Origin: Sphaerisporangium rubeum
GTDB taxonomy: Bacteria; Actinomycetota; Actinomycetes; Streptosporangiales; Streptosporangiaceae
Direction of reading: 5' to 3'
DNA: 64,000 nt
Assembly (NCBI RefSeq): GCF_014207705.1
Contig: NZ_JACHIU010000001.1
Span: 3,154,501-3,218,500 of the forward strand
Shown: piece by piece, positions 4,045 to 47,558 of the stretch
How the letters are laid out: every line of letters starts with the position of its first letter
Position numbering within the stretch: the first letter of the stretch is position 1
Notes under the pieces: generated by a model
Seen by the model: the letters and a program-made list of their open reading frames with translations, nothing else
Database searches by the model: none
Told to the model about the DNA's origin: nothing
Program-made: the position numbers and the translations under genes

Positions 4045-4060
4045 CGAGGAGAAGAGTCCA

Positions 4061-5698: not shown

Positions 5699-5762
5699 TG
5701 GACGTCAGAAGCGCATTTCCTGCCCGGTGCGGCATCCCCCGATCCCAGCGAGGAGACCTCAG

Positions 5763-6944: not shown

Positions 6945-6961
6945 GAACAGGAGGTGCGCTC

Positions 6962-8277: not shown

Positions 8278-8338
8278 TTGACGCGCGAAAAGGCGAAGCG
8301 ATATCGTCCCACTATGAGGAACTAGAACCACAATATGG
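8278..8338 (+). promoter_or_regulatory. Promoter and putative IclR-type operator of the SsuABC/HyuA operon
   Basis: TTGACG at 8278-8283 resembles a -35 element; AT-rich DNA 17-18 nt further on could be the -10. Positions 8322-8338 (CTAGAACCACAATATGG) match 14 of 17 bases with CTAGACCCACATTATGA at 19281-19297, in front of the iclR/hyuB divergent promoter. The similarity continues upstream with a TATGAG/TATAGAG block after a 2-nt gap. A repressor bound here would cover the likely transcription start. The regulator is inferred to be the IclR protein encoded at 18441-19238. Confidence 0.55.
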
Positions 8339-8361
8339 TCCAGTTGGTGGGAGGAAAGTCC

Positions 8362-10971: not shown

Positions 10972-11000
10972 CTCGCGAAGCCGGCACACGAAAGGGTCAC

Positions 11001-16068: not shown

Positions 16069-16820
16069 ACGCACAGAACGCGCGGCCGACGGTCACGCTG
16101 ACCGTCGAGAACCGGGTGGCGACCGTCACGCTGGCACGGCCGGCGCGGCGCAACTCGTTCGACCTGGACATGCTCGCCTGTTTCGAGGACGTCCTGCACC
16201 GGCTCGGCCGCGCGGACGGCGTCGAGGTGGTGCTGCTCACCGGGGAGGGCCCGGCGTTCTGCGCGGGGACCGACCTGGACGAGCTCGCGAAGCTGGACCC
16301 GGCGACCACGCTGCGCGTCCAGCACCGCACGGCGGACCTGGTGGAACGCTGGCACCGGCTGGAGCAGACCACGGTGACCGCGTTCAACGGCCCGGCCATC
16401 GGCTCAGGCGCCGTGCTCGGTCTGGCGTCCGACCTGCGGATCGCCGCCGCCACGACGTTCTTCGCCTTCCCCGAGGTGAGCTTCGGCATCCCGCTGACCT
16501 GGAGCGGCATGGCGATCCTCGCCGACCTCGCCGGCGCCGACCGCGCCAAACGCTGGGTCATGCTGGGGGACCGCCTCGACCGTGAGGAACTGCTGCGGCA
16601 CGACCTCGTCATGTCGGTCGTCCCCGCCGACGGCCTGGCCGGCGCCGCCGCGCGGCTCGTCGACCGGCTGCTCGCCGACCCGCCGCTCGGCCGGGCCATG
16701 ACCAAACGCGCCGCGCGGCTCGCGGGCCCCCGCTTCGAGGCCGTCGCCGCCGACCCCTACCTCGGCGCGCTCGGCGTGGCCCTGCGTCCCGGCGGCGCCT
16801 ACCCCAAGGGGGGCCGGTGA
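16065..16820 (+). CDS. Crotonase-fold (enoyl-CoA hydratase/isomerase family) protein
   Basis: 251 residues with the crotonase oxyanion region (FCAGTDLDEL) and the segment SDLRIAAATTFFAFPEVSFGIP. The Glu of the usual GGGxE motif is replaced (AIGSGAVLGLASD), while the second Glu in FPEVS is kept. This argues against a standard hydratase and for an isomerase, decarboxylase or thioesterase activity. ATG 16065 overlaps the lyase stop (ATGA). The next gene overlaps in turn, so it is embedded in the operon and likely acts on the CoA ester made by the upstream ligase. Confidence 0.82.
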   Translation: MNAQNARPTVTLTVENRVATVTLARPARRNSFDLDMLACFEDVLHRLGRADGVEVVLLTGEGPAFCAGTDLDELAKLDPATTLRVQHRTADLVERWHRLEQTTVTAFNGPAIGSGAVLGLASDLRIAAATTFFAFPEVSFGIPLTWSGMAILADLAGADRAKRWVMLGDRLDREELLRHDLVMSVVPADGLAGAAARLVDRLLADPPLGRAMTKRAARLAGPRFEAVAADPYLGALGVALRPGGAYPKGGR

Positions 16821-18433
16821 GGGCCTACGAGGCGCTGGCCGACGAGCTGGTGGCGCACGGCGTCGACACGGTCTTCGGCCTCATGGGTGACGCCAACATG
16901 TTCCTGATCGCGGACCTCGTCGAACGGCACGGCGTGCGGTACGTGGCGGCGCGGACCGAAGGCGGCGCGGTGATGATGGCCGACGGGTACGCGCGCGTGA
17001 CCGGCAGGACCGGTGTCGCGACCGTCACTCAGGGGCCGGGGCTGGCGAGCGCAGGCAACGCGCTGACCGTCGCGCGGCACGCGCGCACCCCGCTGCTGCT
17101 GGTCGCGGGGGACACCCCGGCCGAGGACCCGCTGCACGTGCAGAACTTCGACCAGGCGCCGTTCGCGCGCGCCACGGCCGGCCGGGAGATCACGGTCGCG
17201 GCGCCGCGCACCGTCCGCCGCGACACCGCACGCGCGCTGCGCGCCGCCGCCGAGCACCCCGGGCCGGTCGTGCTCAACGCCGGCATGGACCTGCAGGACA
17301 CCGAGGTGGACCCGGCCGGCCTGCTGCCTGCCGCTCGCCGGCCGGTGTCCGCCGCGCCACCGGTGCCACCGGACCCCGAAGGCCTGGCCCGCCTCGCGGA
17401 CGCGCTGCGCGCGGCGCGCCGTCCGGTGCTGCTCGCCGGACGCGGGGCCGAGGCCGCGCGCGGCGAACTGGTGGAGCTCGCCGACCACGCAGGCGCGATG
17501 CTCGCCACCACGGTCATGGCCGCCGGCCTGTTCGCCGGACATCCCTACCACCTCGGCGTGGCCGGGGGCCTGGCCAGGCCGCTCACCCGTGAGGTGCTGG
17601 CCGAGGCGGACCTCGTCGCCGCGTTCGGCGCCGGCGTCAACCGGTGGACCACCGACCACGGCGCGCTGTTCCCCCGCGCGACGCTGGCCGCCGTGGACCG
17701 CTCCGCCGAGGCGCTCGGCGCGCGCTGGCCGGTGGACATCGCCGTGCTCGGCGACGCCGCGACGGCGGCGCGGGCCCTGCGCGCGGAGACGGCCGCCGGT
17801 GGACGTCCGCTGTGGCGCACCGAGGAGCTGGCGGCGCGGATCGCGTCCGCCGGCCCGTTCGCCGGGATCACGTACGCCGCCGAGGACGGCAGGATCGACC
17901 CGCGCGCGTTCATGGAGATCTGCGCGAGGCGGCTGCCGCGCGATCGCACGACGGTCGTCGGGGTCGGCCAGTTCGGCGGATGGCCGAACCTGTTCCTCGA
18001 CTCACCCGCCGTGGACCGGGCCTTCGTCGCGCCGTGGGACTTCGGCAGCATCGGCGTCGGGGTGCCGTTCGGCATCGGCGCCGCCGTGGGACGGCCCGGC
18101 CGGCCGGTCGTCGTGTTCGAGGGGGACGGCAGCCTGCTGACCGTGCTCGGCGAGCTCGACACCCTGGCGAGGACCGGCGCGCCGGTCCTCGTCGTGGTGC
18201 TCGACGACGGCGCGTACGGCGCCGAGGTGCGCAAACTCGCGCCGCGCGGCGCGGACACCGGTCTCGCGACGTTCCCGGGACGCGACCTGGCCGCCGTGGC
18301 GCAGGCGCTCGGCGTACCGGCGCATGTGGTGTGCGACGCGGAGTCCGCCGAGCGGGCCTTCGACGCGTCGCCGGCCGGTCCGGTGCTGATGCAGGTGAAG
18401 GTGGCGCGTGGTGTGGTCCAGCGGCACTTCTGA
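16817..18433 (+). CDS. Second thiamine-diphosphate-dependent enzyme
   Basis: 538 residues, paralogous to the product of 4061-5698. Both start with a similar block (YEALADELVAHGVDTVFGLMGD) and share the C-terminal DGAYGAEVRKL segment. The presumed catalytic acid is in ARTEGGAVMMADGYAR and the ThDP motif is GDGSLLTV...DDGAYG. Likely chemistry is 2-oxo-acid decarboxylation or C-C cleavage. Start GTG 16817 overlaps the crotonase stop (GTGA). It is the last gene of this operon and ends only 7 nt from the convergent iclR stop, with no clear hairpin between. Confidence 0.8.
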   Translation: MRAYEALADELVAHGVDTVFGLMGDANMFLIADLVERHGVRYVAARTEGGAVMMADGYARVTGRTGVATVTQGPGLASAGNALTVARHARTPLLLVAGDTPAEDPLHVQNFDQAPFARATAGREITVAAPRTVRRDTARALRAAAEHPGPVVLNAGMDLQDTEVDPAGLLPAARRPVSAAPPVPPDPEGLARLADALRAARRPVLLAGRGAEAARGELVELADHAGAMLATTVMAAGLFAGHPYHLGVAGGLARPLTREVLAEADLVAAFGAGVNRWTTDHGALFPRATLAAVDRSAEALGARWPVDIAVLGDAATAARALRAETAAGGRPLWRTEELAARIASAGPFAGITYAAEDGRIDPRAFMEICARRLPRDRTTVVGVGQFGGWPNLFLDSPAVDRAFVAPWDFGSIGVGVPFGIGAAVGRPGRPVVVFEGDGSLLTVLGELDTLARTGAPVLVVVLDDGAYGAEVRKLAPRGADTGLATFPGRDLAAVAQALGVPAHVVCDAESAERAFDASPAGPVLMQVKVARGVVQRHF

Positions 18434-18440
18434 GCGAGGG

Positions 18441-19238
18441 TCAGCTGCCCCAGATGTCGCCGACTCCGTACCCGAGCTGGACCGACAGCTCACCGGCGGT
18501 GACGGTCGCGGCGGAGACCAGCTCCTTGACCCGGTCGTCGGTGAGCCGGAAGATCGGCCCGGAGACGCTGATCGAGGCGGTGACGGCCCCGTGCCGGTCG
18601 CGGACCGGCACGGCGATGACGCGCAGCCCTTCCTCGCTCTCCTGGTCGTTGAGAGCCCAGCCGCGCTCGCGGACCTCGGCGAGCATGCCGAGGAACTCCT
18701 CGATGTCACCGGCGGTGCTCGGCGTGAGCCGGGTCCACCTCGCCGGCGCGAGCAGCGCGCGGACCGCGTCGTCGTCCAGGTCGGTCAGCAGGACTTTGCC
18801 GGCGGCGCTGCACCACAACGGGATGCGCCGGCCGAGCCGCGACACCAGTTGCAAGGTGTGCGTGCCGGGGACCACGTCGATGGAGATGGCGTCCATGCCT
18901 TCGCGCAGCGCGAGGTTCACCGACTCGCCGGTCCGCTCGGCCAGCTCGCGCAGCAACGGCCGGGCCATGGCGTGCACGTCGAGCCCCGCGAGGTAACGCG
19001 CGCCGAGGTCGAACACCGTGACACCGAGCCGGTAGCCGCCGGTCTCCTCGTTGCGCCGCAGGAATCCGGCGTCGGTGAGCGCGCGGAACAGCCTGCTCGC
19101 CGTCGATTTGTGCAGGCCGAGCTCCCTGCTCACGTCGCTGACCTTGCGCTCGGGGGTGTCCCGGTGGAAGGCCAGCAGGATGCTCAGGGCCCGGTCCAGC
19201 GCCTGCGTGCCGGAGTCCCTGACCGGTTCGGCCGTCAT
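18441..19238 (-). CDS. IclR-family transcriptional regulator
   Basis: 265 residues with an N-terminal winged helix-turn-helix (about 33-61, RKVSDVSRELGLHKSTASRL) and a C-terminal IclR effector domain that normally binds a small aromatic or organic acid. The start is placed at ATG 19238 because GAGAGGTGG lies just before it; a longer in-frame ATG at 19271 would sit inside the TATAAT promoter element. The gene is divergent from hyuB and convergent with the ThDP gene. Its probable operators are at 19275-19297 and 8313-8338. Confidence 0.9.
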   Translation of the reverse strand: MTAEPVRDSGTQALDRALSILLAFHRDTPERKVSDVSRELGLHKSTASRLFRALTDAGFLRRNEETGGYRLGVTVFDLGARYLAGLDVHAMARPLLRELAERTGESVNLALREGMDAISIDVVPGTHTLQLVSRLGRRIPLWCSAAGKVLLTDLDDDAVRALLAPARWTRLTPSTAGDIEEFLGMLAEVRERGWALNDQESEEGLRVIAVPVRDRHGAVTASISVSGPIFRLTDDRVKELVSAATVTAGELSVQLGYGVGDIWGS

Positions 19239-19257
19239 GTCTGTGCGCCACCTCTCT

Positions 19258-19302
19258 TTGGTATGGTTCATATTATAGAGCTAGACCCACATTATGAAAC
19301 AA
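19258..19302. promoter_or_regulatory. Divergent iclR/hyuB promoter with putative IclR operator
   Basis: On the minus strand TATAAT (19277-19272) is a perfect -10 for iclR, with a weak GTTTCA -35 at 17-nt spacing. On the plus strand TTCATA (19267) and CATTAT (19290) could serve hyuB. Between them lies CTAGACCCACATTATGA (19281-19297), nearly the same as the site before the SsuABC operon. The block is also flanked by the inverted pair TTCATA/TATGAA. Binding here would control both directions. Confidence 0.6.
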
Positions 19303-19345: not shown

Positions 19346-21361
19346 ATGACGCTGAACCCGATCGATCTGGAGGTCGTGACCGAGGGTCTGATCTCGATTG
19401 TCCGCGAGATGCGGCAGACCATCTTCCGCACGGCGCACTCCCCGGTCATCGCCGAGGCGCAGGACTTCTCCTGCGCGCTGTTCGGCCCCGGCGGCGAGAT
19501 GGTCGCGCAGGGCCGCGACATGCCGGGCCACGTGATCGCGATGCCGGCCTCCGTGGCCGAGATCCTCGCCGACTTCCGCGCCGGGATGCGTCCCGGCGAC
19601 CTCTACATGGTCAACGACCCCTACCGCGGCGGCAGCCACCTCAACGACGTCACCCTCATGGCGCCGGTGTTCGTCGGCGACGAGCTGTTCGTGTTCCCCT
19701 GCGTGCGGATGCACTGGGCCGACATCGGCGGCATGACCCCCGGCAGCGTCTCCGGCCAGGCCACCGAGATCCTCCAGGAAGGCATGCGCGTGCCGCCGAT
19801 CCGCCTGATGGAGGCCGGCGAGGAGAACGCCGCGGCGTACAGCATCCTGTTCGCCAACGTCCGCATGGCCGACGAGCGCCGCGGCGACCTCGCGTCGTGC
19901 GTGGCCGCCTGCCGCACCGCCGAGCGCCGCCTGCGCGAGATGGTGGAGCGGTACGGCGCGGACGCGGTGCTCGACTGCGTGACGGCCAACATGGCCCGCA
20001 CCGAGGCCCGCCTGCGCGACCGGATCGGCGACCTCGCCGACGGCACCTACCACTACGAGGACTACCTCGACCTCTACACCGACGGACGGTACGACGCCGC
20101 GCTCGTCCGCTGCGCGCTCACCGTCGAAGGCGACCAGATCACCGCCGACTTCCGCGGCTCCTCCCCGCAGGTCGCCGCCGTCGTCAACTCCTCGCTCGCG
20201 ATGACCACCGCCGGGGTCTTCATCGCCGTCAAGTCGGCGCTCGACCCCGGCGGCATGGTGAACCACGGCGCGTTCCGGCCCCTCACCGTCGTCACCGACC
20301 CCGGCACCGTCGTGCACGTGACCTACCCCGCGCCGGCCAACGCGCACAGCGAGGTGCGCAAACGCGTCATCTCGGCGGTGATGGCGGCACTCAGCCAGGT
20401 CGCGCCGGACCTGGTCGCCGCCGACCAGTTCGGCACGACGTTCCAGAACCTCATCGGCGGCGTCGACGCCGGACGGCCCTACCTGTACTACGACTACCCG
20501 GCAGGCGGCAACGGCGGCTACCTGGAGTCCGACGGCCCGAGCGCGATGAACCCGGTCGACCTCGGCGACATCTCCACCATCCAGTCGGTGGAACGCCTGG
20601 AGAGCGAGATCCCGATCCTGGTGGAGGCGTGCGAGCTGCGGCCCGGCTCGGGAGGCGACGGCCTGCGCCGCGGCGGCCTCGGCACCCGCAGAGCCACCCG
20701 CCTGCTCGCCGGCTCCGGCTCCTACTCGGTGCAGACCGACCGCACCACCGTCCCGCCGTACGGCCTGGCGCTCGGCGGCCCCGGAGCCCCCACCGGCACC
20801 CACATCCTGCGCGACGGCGAGCGGATCGACTTCGACACCCCCGGCAAGGTCGCCGGGTACCCGATGCGGCGCGGCGACGTGCTGGTGATGGAGTCGGCCG
20901 GCGGTGGCGGCTTCGGCGACCCCCTCGACCGCGACCCAGCCGCGGTCGCCGCGGACGTGGCCGAGGGCTACCTCGACGAGGCCGCGGCGCGCGACCGCTA
21001 CGGCGTCGTGCTGACCGGCGGCGAACCCGACGCGACCGCGACCGGCCAGGCCAGGCAGGAGTCGCGCGCCGCACGCCGGCGGCTGCCGGTCGCCGGCGGG
21101 GACCGTCCCGCCTACACCGGCGTACGCGGCAGGCGGCGCCTCGCGCGCACGGCCCCCGGCGGCGGGCTCGCCGACGGCACCCTGGTCGAACTGCACGGCC
21201 GCAACCCCGCGCCGCTGCGCGCCTGGATCGGCCACGACCCCGGCGTGCCGGCCGGCCTGATCACCCTCGACGACGACGCGCTGCGCATCCTCGGCCTCGG
21301 CGAGGGGGAACCCGCCGACGTCCGGGTGCTCGCGGACCCCGGCACAGGAGGCGCACGATGA
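19346..21361 (+). CDS. hyuB: Hydantoinase/oxoprolinase B-type subunit (HyuB)
   Basis: 671 residues with the HyuB N-terminus (NPIDLEVVTEGLISIVREM), the segment AEAQDFSCALFGPGGEMVAQG, RPGDLYMVNDPYRGGSHLNDV and the Gly-rich C-terminal SAGGGGFGDPLDRDP. HyuB is the catalytic partner of HyuA in ATP-dependent ring-opening or carboxylation enzymes. It heads the dioxygenase/microcompartment operon, while its presumed partner is in the previous operon. The last ~100 residues, after about residue 560, are more basic and less like the family. ATG 19346 follows GAGG; its stop overlaps amnB (ATGA). Confidence 0.9.
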   Translation: MTLNPIDLEVVTEGLISIVREMRQTIFRTAHSPVIAEAQDFSCALFGPGGEMVAQGRDMPGHVIAMPASVAEILADFRAGMRPGDLYMVNDPYRGGSHLNDVTLMAPVFVGDELFVFPCVRMHWADIGGMTPGSVSGQATEILQEGMRVPPIRLMEAGEENAAAYSILFANVRMADERRGDLASCVAACRTAERRLREMVERYGADAVLDCVTANMARTEARLRDRIGDLADGTYHYEDYLDLYTDGRYDAALVRCALTVEGDQITADFRGSSPQVAAVVNSSLAMTTAGVFIAVKSALDPGGMVNHGAFRPLTVVTDPGTVVHVTYPAPANAHSEVRKRVISAVMAALSQVAPDLVAADQFGTTFQNLIGGVDAGRPYLYYDYPAGGNGGYLESDGPSAMNPVDLGDISTIQSVERLESEIPILVEACELRPGSGGDGLRRGGLGTRRATRLLAGSGSYSVQTDRTTVPPYGLALGGPGAPTGTHILRDGERIDFDTPGKVAGYPMRRGDVLVMESAGGGGFGDPLDRDPAAVAADVAEGYLDEAAARDRYGVVLTGGEPDATATGQARQESRAARRRLPVAGGDRPAYTGVRGRRRLARTAPGGGLADGTLVELHGRNPAPLRAWIGHDPGVPAGLITLDDDALRILGLGEGEPADVRVLADPGTGGAR

Positions 21362-22347
21362 GCAAGGTCTTCCGGCTCCCCGCACCCGGCGGCACCCACG
21401 GCCGCAGGCCGGCCCCCGCCACCACGCCGTCCCCGTCCGTGCCGTCGTCCCGTGGCCGCGCCGGGATCGTGGCCGGCTACCTCAGCCCTCATCCGCCGCA
21501 CCTGGTGTACGCCGAGAACCCGCCGCAGAACGAGCCGCGCTCCGAAGGCGGCTGGGAGACGCTGCGCTGGGCCTACGACCGGCTGCGCAGGCGGATCAAG
21601 GAGGTGCACCGGCCGGACACGCTGATCGTGCACGCGCCGCACTGGATCACCATGGTCGGCCACCACGTCAACTGCGCGCCGAACCCCAAAGGCGTCTCGG
21701 TCGAGCCGATCTTCCCGCACCTGTTCCGCTACCACTACGACTTCCGTACCGACGTGCCGCTGGCCGAGGCCATCGCCGACGAGGCCGAGGGCCTGGGCCT
21801 CGTCACCAGCCGGATGCGCGACCCCGATGTGCGGGTCGACTACGCCACCATCGGCGCGCTCCACATGGTCAACCCCGACTGGGACATCCCCGTGGTGTCG
21901 CTGTCGGCCAACAACAACCCCTACTTCTACTCCGACGCGTCGCTCGGCGACATGGAGGTCCTCGGCGAGGCGACCCGCCGCGCCGTCGAGCGCACCGGCC
22001 GCCGCGCCGTGCTGCTCGGGTCCAACTCGCTGTCGCACCTGCACTGGCACGAGGAACCCGAGCTCCCCGAGGACATGGAGCGCGAGCACCCCTACAACAA
22101 CCACCAGTACCGCTGGGACATGAAGCTGCTCGAAGCCATCAGGCGCGGCCCCACCGCGCCGCTCAAGGAGCTGATCTCCGAGCACATCGAGGCCACCGCC
22201 TCGGAGACCAAGGCCGGCAGCCTCACCTGGCTGCTCGCCGCCATGGGCTGGCCGCGGGTCCCCGGCGACGTCCTCGGGTACGGCACGATCATCGGCACCG
22301 GCAACGCCGTCGTCGAGTGGACACCTGAGGAGGACCACCATGGCTGA
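21358..22347 (+). CDS. amnB: 2-Aminophenol 1,6-dioxygenase catalytic beta subunit (class III extradiol dioxygenase)
   Basis: 329 residues of the LigB-type extradiol family. The diagnostic segment HPPHLVYAENPPQNEP (45-60) and HAPHW (92-96) carry the likely Fe(II) ligands His45 and His95; the Glu ligand lies near the C-terminus. It would cleave 2-aminophenol to 2-aminomuconate 6-semialdehyde. Residues 1-35 precede the normal family start: a short tail (MSKVFRLPAPGG) and a Pro/Ser/Thr linker, which may be a shell-targeting peptide. ATG 21358 overlaps the hyuB stop. Catechol could be an alternative substrate. Confidence 0.85.
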   Translation: MSKVFRLPAPGGTHGRRPAPATTPSPSVPSSRGRAGIVAGYLSPHPPHLVYAENPPQNEPRSEGGWETLRWAYDRLRRRIKEVHRPDTLIVHAPHWITMVGHHVNCAPNPKGVSVEPIFPHLFRYHYDFRTDVPLAEAIADEAEGLGLVTSRMRDPDVRVDYATIGALHMVNPDWDIPVVSLSANNNPYFYSDASLGDMEVLGEATRRAVERTGRRAVLLGSNSLSHLHWHEEPELPEDMEREHPYNNHQYRWDMKLLEAIRRGPTAPLKELISEHIEATASETKAGSLTWLLAAMGWPRVPGDVLGYGTIIGTGNAVVEWTPEEDHHG

Positions 22348-23170
22348 GCCGGCCGGCGTCGTCGCCGCCGCGATGCTGCCAGGCATGCCGCACCTGCTCG
22401 CCGCCGACCAGGCCCCCTCGTGGGCCGAGCTCGCCGGCGCCGCGCGCGAGGTCGGCGACCGGCTGCGCGCGCTGCGGCCCGACGTGGTGCTGCTGCTGTC
22501 CACCCAGTGGTTCACCGTGCTCGGCCACCAGTTCCAGTGCGACCCGCGCGTGTCGGGCCGGCACACCGACGAGAACTGGTACGCCTACGACTACGGTCAC
22601 CTGGAGTACGACCTGCGGTTCGACGTGCCGTTCACCGAGCGGTGGGCCGGCGCCGTGGACGCGCGCGGCATGCAGGCCCGCCGCACCCGCTACGCCGGGT
22701 TCCCCATCGACACCGGTCTCATCGTGGCGTCCGCGCTGCTCGACCCGCGCCACGAGCTGCCGCTCGCGCAGGTCTCCTGCAACCTGTACGCCGGGCCGGA
22801 GACCCTCGCCGAGGTCGGCGCGGCCGGCGCGCGGGCCGCGCGGGACGCCGGGCTGCGTGCCGCCGTGGTCGTGGTCACCGGCCTGTCGTCCGGGCTGATC
22901 CAGCAGTGGATCGAGCCGCGTGAGGACCGGATCGCCGACCCCGCGCACGACCGGTGGAACACCCGGATGCTCGGCCTGCTCACCGAGGGCCGCACCGACG
23001 AGGCGCTCGCGCTGCGCGAGGACTTCGCGCGGCAGGCCCTCGCCGACAGCCAGTTCCGCGCCTTCGCCTTCCTCGACGGCGCCGGTGGCGCCTGTGGACC
23101 GGCACACCTGCACGCCTACGGCCCGGTGTGGGGGACCGGCGGCGCGGTCCTGTCCTGGAACCTGACCTGA
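22340..23170 (+). CDS. amnA: 2-Aminophenol 1,6-dioxygenase alpha subunit (non-catalytic LigB homologue)
   Basis: 276-residue LigB-fold protein. At the positions of the beta subunit's metal ligands it has PGMPHLL and STQWF, so the second His ligand is missing and it is likely a structural subunit, as known for the alpha subunit of AmnAB. It overlaps amnB by 8 nt and has the ribosome site GAGGAGG before ATG 22340, so the two subunits are made together. The shell genes follow after 35 nt. Confidence 0.82.
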   Translation: MAEPAGVVAAAMLPGMPHLLAADQAPSWAELAGAAREVGDRLRALRPDVVLLLSTQWFTVLGHQFQCDPRVSGRHTDENWYAYDYGHLEYDLRFDVPFTERWAGAVDARGMQARRTRYAGFPIDTGLIVASALLDPRHELPLAQVSCNLYAGPETLAEVGAAGARAARDAGLRAAVVVVTGLSSGLIQQWIEPREDRIADPAHDRWNTRMLGLLTEGRTDEALALREDFARQALADSQFRAFAFLDGAGGACGPAHLHAYGPVWGTGGAVLSWNLT

Positions 23171-23205
23171 TCTGGCGATCCCTACAACACACTCCTGGAG
23201 GTTCA

Positions 23206-23499
23206 GTGCCGAACATGGCGGCGGGATTCGTGGAAGCCGAAGGCTTCGTCCCGATTTTCGATGCGGTGGACGCGATGGTGAAGGCCACCGAGGTCGAGGT
23301 GACCGGCGTGGTCCGGCTCGGCGGCGGCATCGTCGCGGTGGCCGTACGTGGTGACCTCGCCACCGTCGAGGAGGCGGTGGACCTCGGCGAGCAGGTCGCC
23401 GCGGCCAAGGCGGGCCGCTCGGTCCGTTCCATCGTCTTCGCCAGCCCGTGCGACGCCGTCTCGGCGCTCGCCGTGGACCCCCGGCTGCTCGGCAGCTAG
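23206..23499 (+). CDS. Bacterial microcompartment hexameric shell protein (BMC-H), first copy
   Basis: 97 residues, the size of a single BMC domain. It follows the family pattern (GFVEAEGFVPIFDAVDAMVKATEVEVTG, then the pore loop and EEAVDLGEQVAAAKAG). The pore loop is LGGGIV, where PduA-type proteins have IGSGLV, so the pore is lined by Gly. GTG 23206 lies 4 nt after GGAGG (23197-23201); ATG 23215 is the alternative start at 13 nt. The protein would tile the facets of a protein shell around the dioxygenase and dehydrogenase. Confidence 0.85.
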   Translation: MPNMAAGFVEAEGFVPIFDAVDAMVKATEVEVTGVVRLGGGIVAVAVRGDLATVEEAVDLGEQVAAAKAGRSVRSIVFASPCDAVSALAVDPRLLGS

Positions 23500-23533
23500 C
23501 GGGGACCCGCTCCAGCAAGAAGGAGAGATCACG

Positions 23534-23863
23534 ATGTCCAGTGACAAGGCGATCGGCATCGTCGAGACCCGCGGCGTGGTGGCGCTGTCCGCCGGGATCG
23601 AAGCCATGATCAAGACGGCGGACGTGCAGTGCGTCGCCGTGGAGCGCGTGACCAGCGGCTACCTCGCCGCGGCCGTGCAGGGCACCCTGGCCGCCGTGCG
23701 CCAGGCCGTCGCGGCCGGTGAGGCCGCCATCCGGCAGCACGGCGAGCTGCGCAGCTCGCAGGTCTACCCAAAGCCCGACCCCGTGACCGCCGCGCTGCTC
23801 GACGACCCCCAGCCGTCGCGGATCCGCGAGGTCATGGCCGGGCTCCCCGGAGCGGCACGGTGA
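23534..23863 (+). CDS. Bacterial microcompartment hexameric shell protein (BMC-H), second copy
   Basis: 109 residues, one BMC domain (AIGIVETRGVVALSAGIEAMIKTADV) plus a short C-terminal tail (SRIREVMAGLPGAAR). The pore loop reads VTSGYL, with Ser and a bulky Tyr, unlike the Gly pore of the neighbouring copy, so the two hexamers probably pass different molecules. ATG 23534 follows AGGAGAG. The stop overlaps the vertex gene (GTGA). Confidence 0.88.
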   Translation: MSSDKAIGIVETRGVVALSAGIEAMIKTADVQCVAVERVTSGYLAAAVQGTLAAVRQAVAAGEAAIRQHGELRSSQVYPKPDPVTAALLDDPQPSRIREVMAGLPGAAR

Positions 23864-24114
23864 TCATCGCCGACGTGGTCGGCAAGGTCTGGCCCGACCG
23901 CGTCCTTGAGTCCCTGCGGGGACGGCGGCTGGTGCTCGTCCGTGAGCGGCCCGCCGGCCCCGACCGGGTGGCCGTCGACCTGCTCAACGCCGGCATCGGG
24001 ACCACTGTGCTGGTGGCGACCGATGAGGCGGCCGCCGCGGCCACCGGCGAGCCGGCCTGCGACGCCGCCGTCGTCGCACTGGTCGCCGACCCGGCCCCGG
24101 GAGGCACGCGATGA
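23860..24114 (+). CDS. Microcompartment pentameric vertex protein (BMC-P, EutN/CcmL family)
   Basis: 84 residues with the EutN/CcmL N-terminus (MIIADVVGKVWPDRV), a central LVLVRERPAG strand, and VAVDLLNAGIGTTVLVATDEAA, which matches the family pattern of a strand followed by a Gly-rich turn. Five copies close each vertex of a polyhedral shell. GTG 23860 and the stop both overlap the neighbouring genes by 4 nt. Only one vertex gene and no double-BMC (trimer) gene are present in the window. Confidence 0.85.
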   Translation: MIIADVVGKVWPDRVLESLRGRRLVLVRERPAGPDRVAVDLLNAGIGTTVLVATDEAAAAATGEPACDAAVVALVADPAPGGTR

Positions 24115-25631
24115 CCGTCACCACCCTCGATCCGGGGCTCATGGCCGGCCGCCGCGCCGGGCCCGCCGGCGAGCTGCGCAACTACGTCGGCGGCCGGTTC
24201 GTCTCCGGCGAGGGGTTCTTCGAGAAGGCGAGCCCCGTCACCGGCGAGGTCATCTGGCGGGTGGCCGAGGCCGGCGCGTCCACGGTGGACGCCGCCGTCA
24301 CCGCGGCCCGCGCGGCGCTGCGCGGCCCCTGGGGGAGGACCGGCGAGCAGGAGCGCGCCGCCGTGCTCCGCAGGATCGCCGCCGAGCTGGAGCGCAGGTT
24401 CGACGATCTGGTCACGGCCGAGGTCGCCGACACCGGCAAGTCCATCACGCAGGCCCGCACGCTGGACATCCCGAGAGGCGCGGCCAACTTCCGCGCGTTC
24501 GCCGACATCATCGCCGCCACCCCCGGTGAGACGTTCACCACGGTGACGCCGGCCGGGGGACGCGCGCTCAACTACACGGTGCGCAAACCCGCCGGCGTGG
24601 TGGCGATCGTGGTGCCGTGGAACCTGCCGTTGCTGCTGCTCACCTGGAAGGTCGCACCGGCGCTCGCCTGCGGCAACGCCGTGGTCGTCAAGCCGTCGGA
24701 GGAGACCCCGGGGTCGGCGACGCTGCTCGCCGAGGTCATGGCCGCCGCCGGTGTGCCGGACGGGGTGTTCAACCTCGTGCACGGCTTCGGTCCGGGATCG
24801 GCGGGGGAGCACCTGACGCGGCACCCCGGGGTGGACGCGATCACCTTCACCGGCGAGTCGGCGACCGGCAGCGCGATCATGCGCGCGGCGGCCGACGGGG
24901 TCAAGGCCGTGTCGTTCGAGCTCGGCGGCAAGAACGCCGGGGTCGTGTTCGCCGACGCCGACCTCGACGCCGCCGTCGAGGGGTCGGTGCGGTCGTCGTT
25001 CACCAACGGCGGCCAGGTGTGCCTGTGCACCGAGCGCCTGTACGTGCAGCGGCCGGTGTTCGAGGAGTTCACCGAGCGGCTGGCCCGGCGCGCGGCGGAA
25101 CTGTCGTTCGGGTGGCCCGCCGACGAGGCGGCCGTGATGATGCCGATGATCTCGGCGGCGCACCGCGAGAAGGTCCTCGGTCACTACCGGCTGGCCCGTG
25201 AGGAAGGCGCGCAGGTGCTCACCGGCGGCGACGTGCCGGTGTTCGGCGACGCGCGGGACGGCGGCGCGTACGTCCGGCCGACCGTGCTCACCGGTCTCGG
25301 ACCCGATGCGAGGACCAACCGTGAGGAGATCTTCGGGCCGGTGTGCCACATCGCGCCGTTCGACGACGCCGACGAGGCGTTCGCGCTGGCCAACGACAGT
25401 CAGTACGGCCTCGCCGCCACCGTGTGGACGCGTGACCTCACCACGGCGCACCAGGCCGGCCGGGTCCTCGACGCCGGGCTGGTCTGGGTCAACACGTGGT
25501 TCGTCCGCGACCTGCGCACCCCGTTCGGCGGGGTGAAGGCATCAGGCGTCGGCCGTGAAGGCGGCACGCATTCCCTCGCCTTCTACTCCGAGCTCACCAA
25601 CGTCTGCGTCGACCTGGGGGAGACCACGTGA
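24111..25631 (+). CDS. amnC: 2-Aminomuconate 6-semialdehyde (or 2-hydroxymuconate semialdehyde) dehydrogenase
   Basis: 506-residue NAD(P)-dependent aldehyde dehydrogenase. The catalytic Cys304 is in GGQVCLC and the general base Glu270 in FELGGKN; PWNLPLLLLTWK and the C-terminal PFGGVKASGVGREGG fit the hydroxymuconic/aminomuconic semialdehyde subgroup. It oxidises the unstable product of AmnBA. About 20 residues at the N-terminus precede the usual family start. Its position right after the shell genes suggests it is a core enzyme inside the compartment. Starts and stops overlap neighbours by 4 nt. Confidence 0.87.
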   Translation: MTVTTLDPGLMAGRRAGPAGELRNYVGGRFVSGEGFFEKASPVTGEVIWRVAEAGASTVDAAVTAARAALRGPWGRTGEQERAAVLRRIAAELERRFDDLVTAEVADTGKSITQARTLDIPRGAANFRAFADIIAATPGETFTTVTPAGGRALNYTVRKPAGVVAIVVPWNLPLLLLTWKVAPALACGNAVVVKPSEETPGSATLLAEVMAAAGVPDGVFNLVHGFGPGSAGEHLTRHPGVDAITFTGESATGSAIMRAAADGVKAVSFELGGKNAGVVFADADLDAAVEGSVRSSFTNGGQVCLCTERLYVQRPVFEEFTERLARRAAELSFGWPADEAAVMMPMISAAHREKVLGHYRLAREEGAQVLTGGDVPVFGDARDGGAYVRPTVLTGLGPDARTNREEIFGPVCHIAPFDDADEAFALANDSQYGLAATVWTRDLTTAHQAGRVLDAGLVWVNTWFVRDLRTPFGGVKASGVGREGGTHSLAFYSELTNVCVDLGETT

Positions 25632-26380
25632 TCAGCGAATTCGCGGCACTGCTGGACGAGGCGGCCCGTACCGCCACCCCGGTACCGGGCCGCGCCGACC
25701 GGCCGGATTTGGACCTGGACACGGCCTACGACGTGCAGGCCGCGTCGGTGGGGCTGCGGCTGGCGCGGGGTGAGCGGCCGGCCGGGGTCAAGATGGGCTT
25801 CACCAGCGAGGCCAAGATGCGGCAGATGGGGGTGAACGAGATGATCTGGGGCCGCCTCACCGACGCCATGCGCGTCGAGGACGGCGGCACGTTCGGCGTC
25901 GGCGCGCACATCCACCCGCGCGCCGAGCCCGAGATCGCGTTCCGGCTCGCACGCGCCCCCGGGCCCGGTGCGGATCCCGCCGCCGTGGTCGAGGCGGTGG
26001 CCCCGGCCATCGAGATCATCAACTCGCGGTACGTCGACTTCCGGTTCACCGTGCCGGAGGTGATCGCCGACAACGCCTCCGCCGCCGCGTTCGTCGTTGG
26101 TCCCTGGGTCCCGCTCACCGGACCGCTGGACGATCTGGACGTCGTGCTGGAGATCGACGGCGAGCCCGCGCAGAAGGGCTCCACCGCGGCCATCCTCGGC
26201 GACCCGCTGCGCGCGCTGACGGAGGCGTTCGACCTCACCGCGCGGCGCGGGCTGCGCCTGTCGGCCGGCGACATCGTGCTCGCCGGCGCGGCCACCGCGG
26301 CGGTCCCGGTACGGCCCGGCAGCCGCGTACGCGCACGGGTGGCGGGCCTCGGCTCCGCCGGTTTCACGGCCGTGCCGTGA
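25628..26380 (+). CDS. amnE: 4-Oxalocrotonate decarboxylase
   Basis: 250-residue member of the hydratase/decarboxylase family. The segment [25 protein letters not shown] is typical of the decarboxylase branch (XylI/AmnE-like), in contrast to the hydratase branch seen at 28772-29566. EPEIAF and [10 protein letters not shown] mark the metal-binding core. It converts 4-oxalocrotonate to 2-oxopent-4-enoate and normally works in complex with the hydratase, here encoded on the opposite strand. GTG 25628 overlaps amnC (GTGA). Confidence 0.82.
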
Positions 26381-26790
26381 GCGGCGGCCTGGTCCCCGGC
26401 AAGGCGACCCCCCGTGGCAGGTTCCCGCACGTCAAGGTCGCGGGCCGGCTGGTGTTCGTCTCCGGGACGAGCAGCCGCCGGCCGGACGACACCATCGAAG
26501 GCGCGCGCGTGGACGCGCTCGGCACCACCGACCTGGACATCCGCGTCCAGACCCGGGCCGTGATCGAGAACATCCGCGACATCCTGCGCTCCGTCGGCGC
26601 CGATCTCCCCGACTTGACGCAGGTCACGACATATCTGGTCTCCATGAACGACTTCGGCGGCTACAACGAGGTCTACGCCGGGTACTTCGACGAGTCGGGG
26701 CCGACGCGGACCACCGTCGCCGTCCACCAGCTACCGCACCCCCACCTGCTGATCGAGATGCAGGCGATCGCGGTGCTGCCGGAGGACTGA
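26377..26790 (+). CDS. amnD: RidA-family 2-aminomuconate deaminase
   Basis: 137 residues of the YjgF/RidA family, with [23 protein letters not shown] near the start and MQAIAVLP at the end. In the 2-aminophenol route this family hydrolyses 2-aminomuconate to 4-oxalocrotonate plus ammonia. Its presence favours an amino substrate over catechol, whose route would need a tautomerase instead. GTG 26377 overlaps amnE (GTGA). It is the last gene of the operon and is followed by a bidirectional hairpin. A general imine-deaminase role is the alternative. Confidence 0.8.
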
Positions 26791-26803
26791 GAAGCCACCG
26801 GAA

Positions 26804-26824
26804 GGGGGCCGCGCCGCGGCCCCC
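26804..26824. terminator. Bidirectional terminator between convergent amn operons
   Basis: GGGGGCCGCG (26804-26813) and CGCGGCCCCC (26815-26824) form an inverted repeat with almost no loop, flanked by CCGG on both sides, in the 45-nt gap between two convergent genes. Confidence 0.65.
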
Positions 26825-26835
26825 ACCGGCGCCTC

Positions 26836-27882
26836 TCAGACGGCGGCGCGTTCGCGTTCGGCGACGAGCTGCAGCGCCACGTCGATGATCATGTCCTCCT
26901 GGCCGCCGACGTACCCGGCCTCGCCGACCCGCTGCAGGATCTCGTGCGCGGGGACCCCGTACCGCTCGGCGGCGCGTTCGGCGTGCAGCAGGAAACTGGA
27001 GTACACCCCCGCGTACCCCTGCGTGATGGACGAACGGTCCGCGAACGGCAGGCGGTGCAGGAACGGCTTGACGACGTCCTCGGCCGCGGCGAGGGCACCC
27101 TGCACGTCCACGCCGGTGGGGATGCCGAGCCGTTCGAACGTGGCCGCCAGCACCTCGGTGGGGGAGTTGCCGGCGCCGGCCCCGAGCGCGCACAGCGCGC
27201 CGTCGATCTGCCTGGCGCCGTTCTGCGCGGCCAGCACGGAGTTGGCGACGCCGAGCGACAGGTTCTGGTGGCCGTGGAAGCCGACCTGCGCCTCGTGGCC
27301 GATCTCGGCGACCAGCGCCGTGATCCGGTCCTGCGCCTCACCGAGCACCAGAGCGCCGGCCGAGTCGACCACGTACACGCACTGCGCGCCGCCGTCCACC
27401 ATGATCCGGGCCTGTGCGGCGAGCTCGGCGGGGCCGATCCGGTGCGACAGCATCAGGAAGCCGACGGTCTCCATGCCGAGTTCGCGCGCGGCGGCGAAGT
27501 GCTGGAGCGACACGTCGGCCTCGGTGCAGTGGGTGGCGATCCGCGCCACCGACGCGCCGGCCCCCTGAGCCCGCCGCAGGTCCTCCACCGTGCCGAGCCC
27601 CGGCAGCAGCAGCACGGCGATCCGCGCCTGCGTGGCCTCGTCCACCGCGGCGGCGACCAGGGAGATGTCGTCCTCGAGGGAGAAGCCGTAGTTGAACGAC
27701 GAGCCGCCGAGGCCGTCGCCGTGGGTCACCTCGATGACCTCCACCCCGGCGCGGTCCAGCGCGTGCACCACGCCGCGCACCTGGCCCTCGGTGAAGCGGT
27801 GCGCCATGGCGTGGCTGCCGTCGCGCAGCGTCGAGTCGGTGATCCTGATCCGCTTCGGCGCGGTGTCCTGCGTGGCGGTCAC
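26836..27882 (-). CDS. amnG: 4-Hydroxy-2-oxovalerate aldolase
   Basis: 348-residue DRE-TIM aldolase of the DmpG/MhpE family. [11 protein letters not shown] (residues 16-26) carries the catalytic Arg20-Asp21 pair, and [16 protein letters not shown] carries the metal-binding HGH. It splits 4-hydroxy-2-oxovalerate to pyruvate and acetaldehyde and channels the aldehyde to its partner dehydrogenase. GTG 27882 overlaps that dehydrogenase's stop (GTGA), so both are made in equal amounts. It is the last gene of the minus-strand operon. Confidence 0.92.
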
Positions 27883-28775
27883 GCGGCCACCTCCCTTTCT
27901 GCCAGCCGCTCACCCACGCGGGCCGCCGCGGCGGTCATGATGTCGAGGTTCCCGGCCCACGGCGGCAGGAAGTCGCCGTTGCCGCGGACCTCCAGGAACA
28001 CCGCGACGCGCGCCATGCCGTTCCAGATGTCGCGCGGCGGGTCGAACTGCGGCTCGGCGCGCAACGTGTAACCCGGCACGTAGGCGGCGACCTCGGCGAC
28101 CATCTGGTGCACCGACGCGGTGACGGCCTCGGTGTCGGCGTCGGCCGGCACGGCGCAGAACACGGTGTCCCGCATGATCATGGGTGGGGTGACCGGGTTG
28201 AGGATGATGATGGCCTTGCCGCGCGCGGCCCCGCCGACCTGCTCGATGGCACGCGCGGTCGTCTCGGTGAACTCGTCGATGTTGGCCCGCGTCCCCGGGC
28301 CGGCCGAGCGGGAGGCGATGGAGGCGATGATCTCGGCGTAGGACACCGGCACGACCCGCGAGACGGCGTGCACGATCGGGATGGTCGCCTGGCCGCCGCA
28401 CGTGATCATGTTGAGGTTCGGCACACCGGACAGCGAGTCCAGGTTGACCGGGGGGCAGACGAACGGGCCCACGGCGGCGGGGGTGAGGTCGATCGCGGTG
28501 ATCCCGGCCTCGGCGTACCGCGGCGCGTTGGCGAGGTGCGCCTTCGCCGAGGTCGCCTCGAACACCAGGTCAGGCAGCCGGTCCTGCGCCAGCAGCCAGT
28601 CGACCCCCTCGGCCGACGCGGGGACGCCGAGGTCACGGGCCCGCGCCAGGCCGTCGGACGCGGGGTCGACCCCCACCATGGAGTGGACCTCGACGACGTC
28701 GCCGCGCAGCAGCTTGACCAGCAGGTCGGTGCCGATGTTGCCGGGCCCGACGATGGCGGCGCTGAGGCGGCTCAC
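27879..28775 (-). CDS. amnH: Acetaldehyde dehydrogenase (acetylating)
   Basis: 298 residues of the DmpF/MhpF family. The Rossmann motif GPGNIGTD is at 10-17 and the catalytic Cys126 is in [13 protein letters not shown]. It turns acetaldehyde, CoA and NAD+ into acetyl-CoA, in complex with the aldolase encoded next. GTG 28775 was chosen because it overlaps the hydratase stop by 4 nt and gives the family N-terminus ([12 protein letters not shown]); longer in-frame extensions run through the hydratase gene. Confidence 0.92.
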
Positions 28776-29566
28776 CGGGCCTCCCCGGCGAAGCGCGCGG
28801 TGACCGACCCGATGCCGGCGAACGTCGCGGTCACGGTGTCCCCGGCGGTCACCGGGATCGCCGCGGTGATCGACCCCGGCAGCACGACGTGGCCGGCCTC
28901 CAGGCTGACCCCGCGCTCGCCGAGCGTGTTGGCCAGCCACACCAGCGCGTTGACCGGCGAGCCGAGCACGGCCCCACCGGCGCCGGTCTGCTCCAGCACG
29001 CCGTTCCTGTGCAGCAGGCAGCCGGCCATGGCGAGGTCCAGCGCGTCCAGCCGGACCGGCCGGGTGCCGAGCACCACGCCGCCGCTGGAGGCGTTGTCGG
29101 CGATGGTGTCCGCCAGCGTGATCTTCCAGTCCGCGATGCGCGAGTCGATGATCTCCAGCGACGGCAGCACGAAGTCCACCGCGGACACGGCCTGCGCGGC
29201 GGTGACGCCGGGGCCCTTCAGCGGACGGCCGAGCACGAACGCGATCTCCGGCTCGATCCGCGGCTGGAGGAACCGGCCCGTGTCGATCGGCGCCGCGTCC
29301 AGATGGAACATCGAGCCGGTCAGGTGCCCGTAGTCGGGCTGGTCCACCCCCAGTTGGCGCTGCATGGCGGCCGAGGTCAGACCCACCTTGTGGCCCTTGA
29401 TCACCTCTCCGCCGCCGGTCCACCTGTCCACCTGCGCGAGCTGGACCGCGTACGCGTCGGCGAGCGTGATGCCGGGATGGGTGACCGTGAGCGGTGCGAT
29501 CGCGGTGCGCGTGGCGTACGCGTCGAGCAACGCGGCCGCGGCCTTCTCCACGGAACTCGCGTCCAT
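28772..29566 (-). CDS. amnF: 2-Keto-4-pentenoate hydratase
   Basis: 264-residue hydratase-branch member (MhpD/XylJ-like): [23 protein letters not shown] and [12 protein letters not shown]...[10 protein letters not shown] are characteristic. It adds water to 2-oxopent-4-enoate to give 4-hydroxy-2-oxovalerate. The start is at ATG 29566 after GAAAGGAAG; upstream in-frame ATGs run into the promoter shared with the divergent iclR gene. It heads the hydratase-dehydrogenase-aldolase operon. Confidence 0.88.
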
Positions 29567-29669: not shown

Positions 29670-30443
29670 ATGTCACCCAAGGCCACCGACGAGAGCACCT
29701 ACCTGCGGCGGGTGGTCGCGGTGCTGCGGGCCTTCCGCGCCGACGACGACGGCCTCGGCCCGGCCGAGCTGGCGAGGCGCACCGGCCTGCCGAAGTCCAC
29801 CGCGCACCGCATCGCCGCCGACCTCGCCGAGACGGGTCTGCTCGAACGCCACGGCGCCGGGACACGCCTCGGCCTGACCCTGTTCGAGATCGGCCAGAAG
29901 GTCCCCCGCCAACGCGTCCTCCGCGACGCCGCACTGCCGTACATGTCCGACCTGCGCGAGGCCACCCGGCAGACCGTCCACCTCGCCGTCCTGGAGGGCC
30001 ACGAGGTCGTCTACGTCGAGATCCTCCCCACCCCCGGCGGCCCCGACCTCCCCTCACGCGTCGGCGGCAGGCTCCCCGCCGTGGTCACCGGCGTCGGCAA
30101 GGCCATCCTCGCCTTCTCCCCCGAGAGCACCGTGCGCGCCGTCCTGGAACGCGGCCTCCCGCGCGTCAGCGAACGCAGCCTCACCGCACCAGGCGTTCTC
30201 ACCCGCGAACTCGACCGCATCCGCACCGACGGCGTGGCCTACGACCGTGAGGAGTCGGGCCCCGGCATCGTCTGCGCCGCCAGCCCCGTCCTCGCCCCCG
30301 ACGGCACCGCGCTCGCCGCGCTCTCGGTCTCCGGCTGGAGCACCCACATGCGCACCCGTCACACGGCCCCGGCCGTCCACACGGCGGCCCTGGCCCTGTC
30401 CCGTGCCCTCAGCGTGCCGGGCCGCGAGGACGCCGCGCGCTGA
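29670..30443 (+). CDS. Second IclR-family transcriptional regulator
   Basis: 257 residues. The winged HTH is at about residues 29-60 (LGPAELARRTGLPKSTAHRI) and the IclR effector domain follows (VHLAVLEGHEVVYVE...ILAFSP...VSGWS). It is divergent from the amnF-amnH-amnG operon and likely regulates it and itself. It is clearly not a recent copy of the IclR at 18441. No strong ribosome site precedes ATG 29670; AGGT lies 13 nt upstream and leaderless translation is possible. Confidence 0.88.
   Translation: MSPKATDESTYLRRVVAVLRAFRADDDGLGPAELARRTGLPKSTAHRIAADLAETGLLERHGAGTRLGLTLFEIGQKVPRQRVLRDAALPYMSDLREATRQTVHLAVLEGHEVVYVEILPTPGGPDLPSRVGGRLPAVVTGVGKAILAFSPESTVRAVLERGLPRVSERSLTAPGVLTRELDRIRTDGVAYDREESGPGIVCAASPVLAPDGTALAALSVSGWSTHMRTRHTAPAVHTAALALSRALSVPGREDAAR

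Positions 30444-43982: not shown

Positions 43983-47558
<3,576 letters not shown>

Follow-up and report, generated by a model that had tools for sequence, protein, structure and literature searches.

Microcompartments of the aromatics (ARO) type are a published actinobacterial class, with Micromonospora rosaria as the model (Sutter et al., 2021, PMC8217296, in part; Doron, Sutter and Kerfeld, 2023, PMC10470539). Their shell composition, the structure of their dioxygenase and the in vitro activity of AmnAB with AmnC have been described, and simple and extended loci, aminophenol and catechol subtypes and satellite loci with an IclR of their own are distinguished (PMC10470539; PMC8217296, in part). 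In M. rosaria, the activity of AmnAB and AmnC and the structure of AmnAB have been shown; HyuAB is the only upper-pathway candidate named, and the precursor of 2-aminophenol is stated to be unknown (PMC10470539). The 2-aminophenol meta-cleavage pathway also occurs without a shell, for instance in the cnb genes of Comamonas testosteroni CNB-1 (PMC10470539). Here, we describe a locus of Sphaerisporangium rubeum that lies in a 64,000-nucleotide stretch of contig NZ_JACHIU010000001.1 (positions 3,154,501 to 3,218,500, hereafter the window) and that is, as judged from its sequence, an ARO locus of the 2-aminophenol subtype and a further copy of this described organelle class. We consider it reasonably probable that it encodes a 2-aminophenol compartment with a whole catabolic route, fed by an importer/HyuAB operon under a single IclR switch. 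The ARO class being already known, the additions made here are a conserved importer/HyuA operon, a shared palindrome and a composite lower pathway.

Gene families were assigned by Pfam and NCBIfam profile scans of the window's proteins with curated cut-offs. The shell locus and the regulator next to it consist of:

19346..21361, plus strand: hyuB, metal-binding subunit of the oxoprolinase/hydantoinase family, with the metal ligands of CapB kept (PF02538, 535 bits, scanned from 19358)
21358..22347, plus strand: amnB, beta (catalytic) subunit of 2-aminophenol 1,6-dioxygenase, with an N-terminal extension (PF02900, 93.1 bits)
22340..23170, plus strand: amnA, alpha subunit of the dioxygenase (PF02900, 38.8 bits, cut-off 26.3)
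23215..23499, plus strand: BMC-H1, assigned to the 'lipstickred' type for having no P(R/K)P motif (PF00936, 58.8 bits, cut-off 24.5)
23534..23863, plus strand: BMC-H2, assigned to the 'cerulean' type for PKPD at the edge-motif position (PF00936, 69.4 bits, cut-off 24.5)
23860..24114, plus strand: BMC-P shell vertex protein (PF03319, 58.2 bits, cut-off 25)
24111..25631, plus strand: amnC, aminomuconic/hydroxymuconic semialdehyde dehydrogenase (PF00171; TIGR03216, 785 against a cut-off of 693)
25628..26380, plus strand: amnE, 4-oxalocrotonate decarboxylase (FAA_hydrolase; best match TIGR03218, 193 bits, below its cut-off of 351)
26377..26790, plus strand: ridA (amnD), 2-aminomuconate deaminase (PF01042; best NCBIfam match the Rid family, 70 against a cut-off of 106)
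26836..27882, minus strand: amnG, 4-hydroxy-2-oxovalerate aldolase (HMGL-like and DmpG_comm; TIGR03217, 473 against a cut-off of 286)
27879..28775, minus strand: amnH, acetylating acetaldehyde dehydrogenase (AcetDehyd-dimer; TIGR03215, 444 against a cut-off of 282)
28772..29566, minus strand: amnF, 2-keto-4-pentenoate hydratase (FAA_hydrolase; best match TIGR03220, 280 bits, below its cut-off of 409)
29670..30443, plus strand: iclR2, regulator divergent to amnFHG (PF01614, PF09339), 58-59% identical to the Kibdelosporangium regulator beside amnFHG

AmnC, AmnH and AmnG pass their NCBIfam cut-offs; AmnE, AmnF and RidA miss theirs, with the expected family still the best match. From hyuB, whose ATG is at position 19346 (HyuB queries ran from four codons after it), through amnB, amnA, BMC-H1, BMC-H2, BMC-P, amnC and amnE to ridA, the genes form a single tight nine-gene run, with overlaps of 4 or 8 bases at six of its eight junctions and gaps of 44 and 34 bases flanking BMC-H1. 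The 44-base gap follows amnA, placing the ring-cleavage genes directly upstream of the shell genes. On the facing strand, amnF (start at 29566), amnH and amnG overlap by 4 bases at each junction. A first-pass annotation of this DNA, made from the letters alone, had named a coupled shell operon together with a hydratase, an acetylating aldehyde dehydrogenase and an aldolase on the facing strand, and every gene it named is present within 19346..29566, in that arrangement. Its extent was too narrow, as it missed hyuB, the divergent iclR1 and the importer/hyuA/ligase/lyase/crotonase/thiamine-diphosphate (ThDP) operon at 8362-18433; nor was the different ancestry of the facing amnFHG genes visible to it.

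Both BMC-H proteins (PF00936) and the BMC-P protein (PF03319) score above the profile cut-offs, and the two PF00936 proteins are the only ones in the whole genome. They are 80-87% identical, and BMC-P is 68-71% identical, to those of nine Micromonospora-type loci (eight titled Micromonospora and one titled Verrucosispora), which include M. rosaria DSM 803. To the latter (L012), the identities are 86% for BMC-H1, BMC-H2, AmnB and RidA, 82% for AmnC and 71% for BMC-P. AmnB aligns end to end (1-329, E 2.1e-184, extension included) with 7txy_B of the Protein Data Bank, the beta subunit of a 2-aminophenol 1,6-dioxygenase, while its alignment with the extension-less beta chain 3vsg_B begins only at residue 36. 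Residues H45, H95 and E283, which we take to be the iron ligands, are invariant across 16 aligned AmnB sequences. AmnC is of the NAD-dependent type, unlike the CoA-acylating type of other compartments. A RidA deaminase is encoded in the locus, and the only tautomerase match of the genome (PF01361) lies at 5.36 Mb, about 2 Mb from the window (3.15-3.22 Mb). IclR-type regulators, iclR1 and iclR2, adjoin the locus. The shell set, the AmnB match, the identities to M. rosaria and the presence of RidA with no tautomerase nearby are the grounds for assigning the locus to the 2-aminophenol subtype. The first-pass annotation had likewise proposed the known ARO class, in the extended and amino-substrate form because of RidA, with a dioxygenase of the aminophenol type; the near-identity of the shell set to M. 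rosaria-type loci, in agreement with PMC10470539, and the AmnB and RidA results bear it out on each of these points.

Instead of 2-aminophenol itself, the physiological ring-cleavage substrate might be a substituted aminophenol or catechol. Both 2-amino-5-chlorophenol and catechol are further substrates of the M. rosaria enzyme, whose affinity for catechol is about five times higher (PMC10470539), and the best family of AmnC is named for the hydroxymuconic enzyme. However, the turnover of 2-aminophenol by the M. rosaria enzyme is about seven times that of catechol (277 vs. 38 per second; PMC10470539), a RidA-type deaminase gene closes the shell operon and the tautomerase match is distant, so that we regard this substrate assignment as quite improbable.

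Two features bear on the ARO class as a whole. The hexamer-edge motif of BMC-H2 reads PKPD here against PKPH in M. rosaria, and among 13 relatives six have PKPH and seven have another last residue; the P(R/K)PH motif is not fixed in ARO shells and so is not class-defining. The N-terminal extension of AmnB (window 21358-21462) has a short conserved start with the consensus MSRVFxL, followed by a variable linker; the conserved start is a candidate encapsulation signal.

Before the shell locus lies a second operon, followed by iclR1:

8362..9330, plus strand: substrate-binding lipoprotein of an ABC importer, NMT1/SsuA type (PF09084, 65.8 bits; open reading frame from 8335, signal-peptide-like start at 8362)
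9327..10166, plus strand: ATPase of the importer (PF00005)
10156..10971, plus strand: permease of the importer, TauC/SsuC type (PF00528)
11001..13016, plus strand: hyuA, ATP-binding subunit of the oxoprolinase/hydantoinase family (PF01968, PF05378, PF19278)
13013..14545, plus strand: AMP-forming acyl-CoA ligase (PF00501, PF13193; scanned from 13010)
14542..16068, plus strand: lyase of the PcaB/adenylosuccinate-lyase superfamily, N-terminus uncertain (PF00206, PF10397)
16065..16820, plus strand: crotonase-family (enoyl-CoA hydratase-like) protein (PF00378)
16817..18433, plus strand: ThDP enzyme (PF02776, PF00205, PF02775)
18441..19271, minus strand: iclR1, regulator divergent to hyuB (PF01614, PF09339), 68-72% identical in the nine Micromonospora-type loci

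The genes of 8362-18433 are one unit: 29 bases separate the importer genes from hyuA, and hyuA, the ligase, the lyase, the crotonase and the ThDP enzyme are joined by 4-base overlaps. The lyase scores above the TIGR00928 purB cut-off and below those of 3-carboxymuconate cycloisomerase, and therefore no substrate is assigned to it. The conserved block begins near 8,325 and runs through the importer, HyuA, the ligase, the lyase, the crotonase, the ThDP enzyme, IclR and HyuB to AmnB. The order hyuA-ligase-lyase-crotonase-ThDP-iclR1-hyuB-amnB is kept in all nine Micromonospora-type loci and in Actinomadura viridis. Upstream DNA was examined for A. viridis and for eight of the nine Micromonospora-type loci, and in every case the importer precedes the block. 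Identities within the block are about 61-84% by gene, with the permease match in L124 split. It has been noted that Micromonospora, Verrucosispora, Sphaerisporangium rubeum and A. viridis share the region preceding the IclR gene (PMC10470539). The words ABC, transporter, ligase, lyase, thiamine, dikinase and monooxygenase are absent from the main text of that paper, whose figures or supplement may draw such genes. We suggest that this neighboring operon of importer and putative ring-opening enzyme belongs to the ARO system and may supply its starting material.

Genes before 8,325 were considered as further upper-pathway parts and rejected, as conservation upstream of hyuA stops at the importer binding protein. 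Beyond it there are only weak matches (21-36%), in L128, and the luciferase-like monooxygenase before 8,325 is at most 38% identical among the matches listed for 12 genomes with ARO-type dioxygenase loci. That gene belongs to a catabolic-looking cluster at window 3-8037, with branched-chain-type ABC genes, a PF04199 cyclase, a ThDP enzyme and a periplasmic binding protein, which does not accompany the ARO block in the relatives examined.

Joint regulation of the two operons is suggested by a palindrome found, depending on the genome, before one or both of them; in the window these are:

8325..8341, plus strand: palindrome GAACCACAATATGGTCC before the importer operon, 0 mismatches to GNACCACAWTATGGTCC, a presumed regulator-binding site
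19284..19300, plus strand: imperfect palindrome copy between iclR1 and hyuB, 4 mismatches to GNACCACAWTATGGTCC

In the aligned iclR1-hyuB gaps, most Micromonospora-type loci have the inverted repeat GGACCACAWTATGGTCC. Counts were made with GNACCACAWTATGGTCC, a pattern written after these sites had been seen. Before hyuB, it is found in the nine Micromonospora-type loci with 0 mismatches in six, 1 in one and 3 in one, and at up to three mismatches it is missing from the ninth; before the importer, it has 0 mismatches in the window, 1 in A. viridis and 3 in seven of eight Micromonospora-type stretches, the eighth having none. The Micromonospora loci are close relatives. In the window, an 18-base form at up to 3 mismatches gives 1 match against 0.01 expected. 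Across five whole genomes, there is one place per genome with 0 or 1 mismatch, within the ARO locus in all five, against 0.06 to 0.1 per genome expected from base composition. With 2 mismatches, the pattern does not outnumber its reversed control (14 vs. 16 matches in all, the latter without a breakdown by mismatch class), and matches of this grade are therefore put down to chance. Fourteen other ARO-type stretches, two of which overlap a third, hold four scattered matches at up to 3 mismatches, and the amnF-iclR2 gap has no copy at up to 4. The strongest points for the site are that every near-perfect match lies in an ARO locus and that one motif stands before two different operons. We read the importer and shell operons as one regulon, united by this predicted operator, to which an IclR-type regulator would bind. 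Three observations weigh against this reading: the four mismatches of the window's own hyuB-side copy, the lack of any palindrome before hyuB of A. viridis at up to four mismatches, and the same lack at up to three mismatches in L035, a metagenome-assembled contig considered below.

Alternatively, the importer-hyuA-ligase-lyase-crotonase-ThDP operon may merely travel with the ARO genes and be metabolically separate, served by HyuB or by nothing. No HyuA-ligase-lyase block of this type is seen in the stretches examined for 22 of 31 shell-bearing loci, and therefore the upper block is not a general ARO part, a count that also speaks against a link with the compartment; moreover, the nine Micromonospora-type loci are so closely related that their common order is partly inheritance. 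However, HyuA and HyuB together make up a single enzyme, and the window, A. viridis and all nine Micromonospora-type loci have one of the two subunit genes in each operon. The palindrome precedes both operons, and the order hyuA-ligase-lyase-crotonase-iclR-hyuB-amnB persists in L035, whose AmnB is only 63% identical. We hold metabolic separateness to be rather unlikely.

L035, titled Betaproteobacteria, retains those genes without the ThDP enzyme and this importer. It was considered as a proteobacterial ARO locus but is not claimed as one: the contig breaks off within amnA, and a search of its genome gave no match to BMC-H1. The empty genome search counts against the route proposed below, though alone it proves nothing. 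The AmnB tree puts the AmnB of this contig on a long branch amid ARO sequences of Actinobacteria (86/91), for which reason the contig may be mis-binned.

The relationships of the split enzyme, HyuAB, are as follows. Against solved structures, HyuA scores 438 bits with N-methylhydantoinase, 364 with 6yra_A and 243 with acetophenone carboxylase, and HyuB 226, 209 and 105 bits in the same order. We take 6yra to be the caprolactamase CapAB, because its chain lengths equal those given for CapA and CapB, 696 and 581 (PMC8453981, in part). CapB D41, H99, D102 and H124 are metal ligands found essential by mutation (PMC8453981, in part); HyuB keeps all four of this Asp-His-Asp-His site, and HyuA keeps the ATP-site motifs DxGGTxTD, DxGGT and GxxPGP of CapA at residues 7, 282 and 345. 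The same metal tetrad occurs in carboxylases too (PMC8453981, in part), so it is no proof of hydrolysis. HyuA reaches 471.5 bits (caprolactamase alpha, its best family) and HyuB 261 with the NCBIfam caprolactamase profiles, whose cut-offs are 1000. Because both lie far below these cut-offs, HyuAB is assigned by sequence only to the wider oxoprolinase/hydantoinase family, a point against the ring opening proposed below.

A different role for HyuAB would be to carboxylate or decarboxylate an aryl ketone or aryl acid in series with the CoA ligase and the crotonase, much as acetophenone is degraded. Subunits of acetophenone carboxylase and of acetone carboxylase also match significantly, the CoA ligase belongs to the conserved block, and decarboxylation to 2-aminophenol or catechol has been proposed (PMC10470539). 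But the hydrolases outscore the carboxylases for both subunits (HyuA 438 and 364 against 243 and below; HyuB 226 and 209 against 105 and below), and different HyuAB pairs, 37-39% and 29-33% identical to that of the window, stand near amnB in the ARO loci of Streptomyces sp. SID8352, Nocardioides soli and Microtetraspora glauca with no ligase, lyase or crotonase. A carboxylase role is, in our opinion, an unlikely but serious possibility. As HyuAB pairs recur beside amnB in these other ARO loci, we place HyuAB at the step that yields 2-aminophenol. In N. soli and M. glauca, a gene of the M24 peptidase family precedes hyuB-hyuA.

Close relatives of this enzyme were also sought more widely. Among 99 plasmid records examined for HyuAB contexts none exceeds 60% identity, the best being about 37%, and at E 1e-150 or 1e-160 no other close HyuB was found in 395 other genomes drawn from the phylum or in 273 other genomes of the class of L035, with few candidates scored per genome in both searches. 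A protein collection yields close HyuB relatives at 73% or more, then some at 54-66% and then many at 50-56%, some with non-actinobacterial names. Away from the locus, the S. rubeum genome contains two more matches, one of the LigB family and one to HyuA (G000:C1:5933330-5934091, L146; G000:C1:2730203-2731045, L001).

Based on the gene families, the conservation of the block, the intact catalytic residues and the recurring site, we propose the following route. A shell of two BMC-H proteins and one BMC-P protein would enclose AmnAB and AmnC. AmnAB would convert 2-aminophenol to 2-aminomuconic semialdehyde, which AmnC would oxidize ahead of its cyclization to picolinic acid, and RidA/AmnD, AmnE, AmnF, AmnG and AmnH would in turn lead to pyruvate and acetyl-CoA. 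The ABC importer of the second operon (8362-18433) would bring in the precursor; HyuA, with HyuB from the shell operon, would spend ATP on opening a cyclic amide or carbamate to give 2-aminophenol; and the CoA ligase, lyase, crotonase and ThDP enzyme would process the remainder. An IclR-type regulator at the shared palindrome would switch both operons. Shell assembly, encapsulation, the chemistry of HyuAB, the nature of the precursor and the roles of the last four enzymes are all deduced from gene content. Against such a route stands the report that 2-aminophenol does not support growth of M. rosaria, another carrier of the block, and is harmful to it above 100 uM (PMC10470539).

As to the precursor, a cyclic carbamate or lactam would suit the HyuAB family as a hypothetical substrate, and benzoxazolinone breakdown in soil gives 2-aminophenol (PMC8195599, in part). 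We raise, tentatively and as an idea that is possible rather than likely, that the precursor is an N,O-heterocycle of the benzoxazolinone or benzoxazinone type, of plant or microbial origin, which is imported and whose carbamate or lactam is opened by HyuAB to 2-aminophenol, with CO2 or glyoxylate, under one palindromic operator. Against opening by HyuAB, the benzoxazinoid-opening enzyme BxdA is called a lactonase, i.e., an enzyme of another kind (PMC11297187, in part). Our literature searches found no paper joining benzoxazolinone with a microcompartment or hydantoinase and aminophenol with Micromonospora, and none besides PMC10470539 under the name ARO BMC. If the N,O-heterocycle hypothesis were true, the organelle would allow actinobacteria in soil to feed on allelochemicals from which toxic aminophenoxazinones otherwise arise, and the upper half of the route would be interchangeable between lineages (HyuAB, a split PEP-synthase-like pair or a Baeyer-Villiger-type monooxygenase), with the shelled lower half kept constant.

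The lower half of the pathway in the window differs in ancestry from its core. AmnF, AmnH and AmnG are 46-51, 55-61 and 50-53% identical, respectively, to those of the Micromonospora-type loci (for AmnG, L008, at a contig end, is left aside), and 61-62, 74-75 and 73-74% identical to those of Kibdelosporangium; AmnG and AmnH are 71-72 and 73-76% identical to those of Actinomycetospora. A tree was built for AmnH, with AmnF and AmnG compared by identities. In this AmnH tree of 23 rows, the window and ten rows of Pseudonocardiaceae form a group (100/100) separate from Micromonospora and Microtetraspora. The layout of iclR2 with divergent amnFHG is that of both Kibdelosporangium loci. In the AmnB tree, Micromonospora is nearest by path, with the exact placement lacking support. 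In A. viridis, no match to amnF, amnH or amnG was found in the 40 kb examined. As amnFHG align and group with Pseudonocardiaceae and AmnB is nearest to Micromonospora, the locus is probably composite, a lower module of the satellite type having been joined to an ARO core.

The distribution of ARO loci was surveyed by scanning genome contigs with the alignment of 16 AmnB sequences, which gave 460 relatives, and the locus counts given here refer to the best 80 of these 460. Shell genes accompany AmnB in 31 of the 80 loci, and none was seen in the stretch examined for the other 49. All 31 shell-bearing loci, M. rosaria DSM 803 among them, carry actinobacterial titles. The host, M. glauca and A. 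viridis belong to one family. BMC-H1 matches at E 1e-15 occur in three of 341 genomes of that family and, among 396 genomes drawn from the phylum, in five, the host's own genome being included in both counts. The upper modules of the 31 loci vary, comprising this HyuAB-type block (9), other HyuAB pairs (3), a split PEP-synthase-like pair with a HAD-type gene (15, and one more partly at a contig end) and a Baeyer-Villiger-type monooxygenase with no HyuAB in the stretch (1); two stretches (L015, L022) end too early. Family names of the modules other than that of the window come from a scan of one representative each.

The PEP-synthase-like pair, a PPDK_N protein and a PEP-utiliser protein near the shell genes, occurs in Pseudonocardiaceae and some other Actinobacteria (L014, L016-L021, L023, L024, L026-L029, L032 and L036, and in part L031). 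In L131 (14915-18676) the two proteins have 370 and 607 amino acids, sizes that presumably resemble those of phenylphosphate synthase subunits, and the pair is perhaps another upper or priming step in other ARO lineages. The ARO locus of Streptomyces sp. SID8352 (L025:7052-17183) has a Baeyer-Villiger-type monooxygenase and an alpha/beta hydrolase after amnC and a Beta_elim_lyase gene before amnB, and L030 shares the monooxygenase (69%). Such a monooxygenase with an esterase could convert an aryl ketone such as 2-aminoacetophenone to an aminophenol.

Downstream of iclR2, four proteins with ricin-type beta-trefoil lectin domains are encoded within 17 kb (window 30519-31955, 32426-33970, 35521-37935 and 44031-47558), one with an arabinofuranosidase domain and one with ThuA, GSDH, PKD and CBM6 domains. 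They are probably secreted carbohydrate-degrading enzymes.

The published work on ARO leaves the natural substrate and the inducer open (PMC10470539), and the additions made here render the precursor question directly testable. The handles are an importer that is conserved, an enzyme whose two subunits keep their catalytic residues and are encoded in separate operons, and a specific 17-base site. The joining of lower-pathway genes of another lineage to an ARO core is a further point of interest. The upper modules of other ARO lineages are quite unlike this one, so that more than one precursor may be processed by the organelle.

Compared with known systems, HyuAB resembles CapAB of Pseudomonas jessenii and N-methylhydantoinase in that HyuA and HyuB match over most of their length with the metal ligands and ATP motifs kept, and differs from CapAB in scoring well below the equivalog cut-offs and in having its subunit genes in two operons. 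With the cnb pathway of C. testosteroni CNB-1 the locus shares the ring-cleavage chemistry, AmnB being 54.9% identical over 87% of its length, although that match begins at residue 37, past the extension. The closest system is the ARO locus of M. rosaria. There, amnF, amnH and amnG lie between amnC and amnE and BMC-H2 has PKPH, while here the three genes face the shell operon, next to an iclR2 of their own, and BMC-H2 has PKPD; both loci encode two BMC-H proteins and one BMC-P protein, AmnAB with the AmnB extension, AmnC, RidA, IclR and HyuAB.

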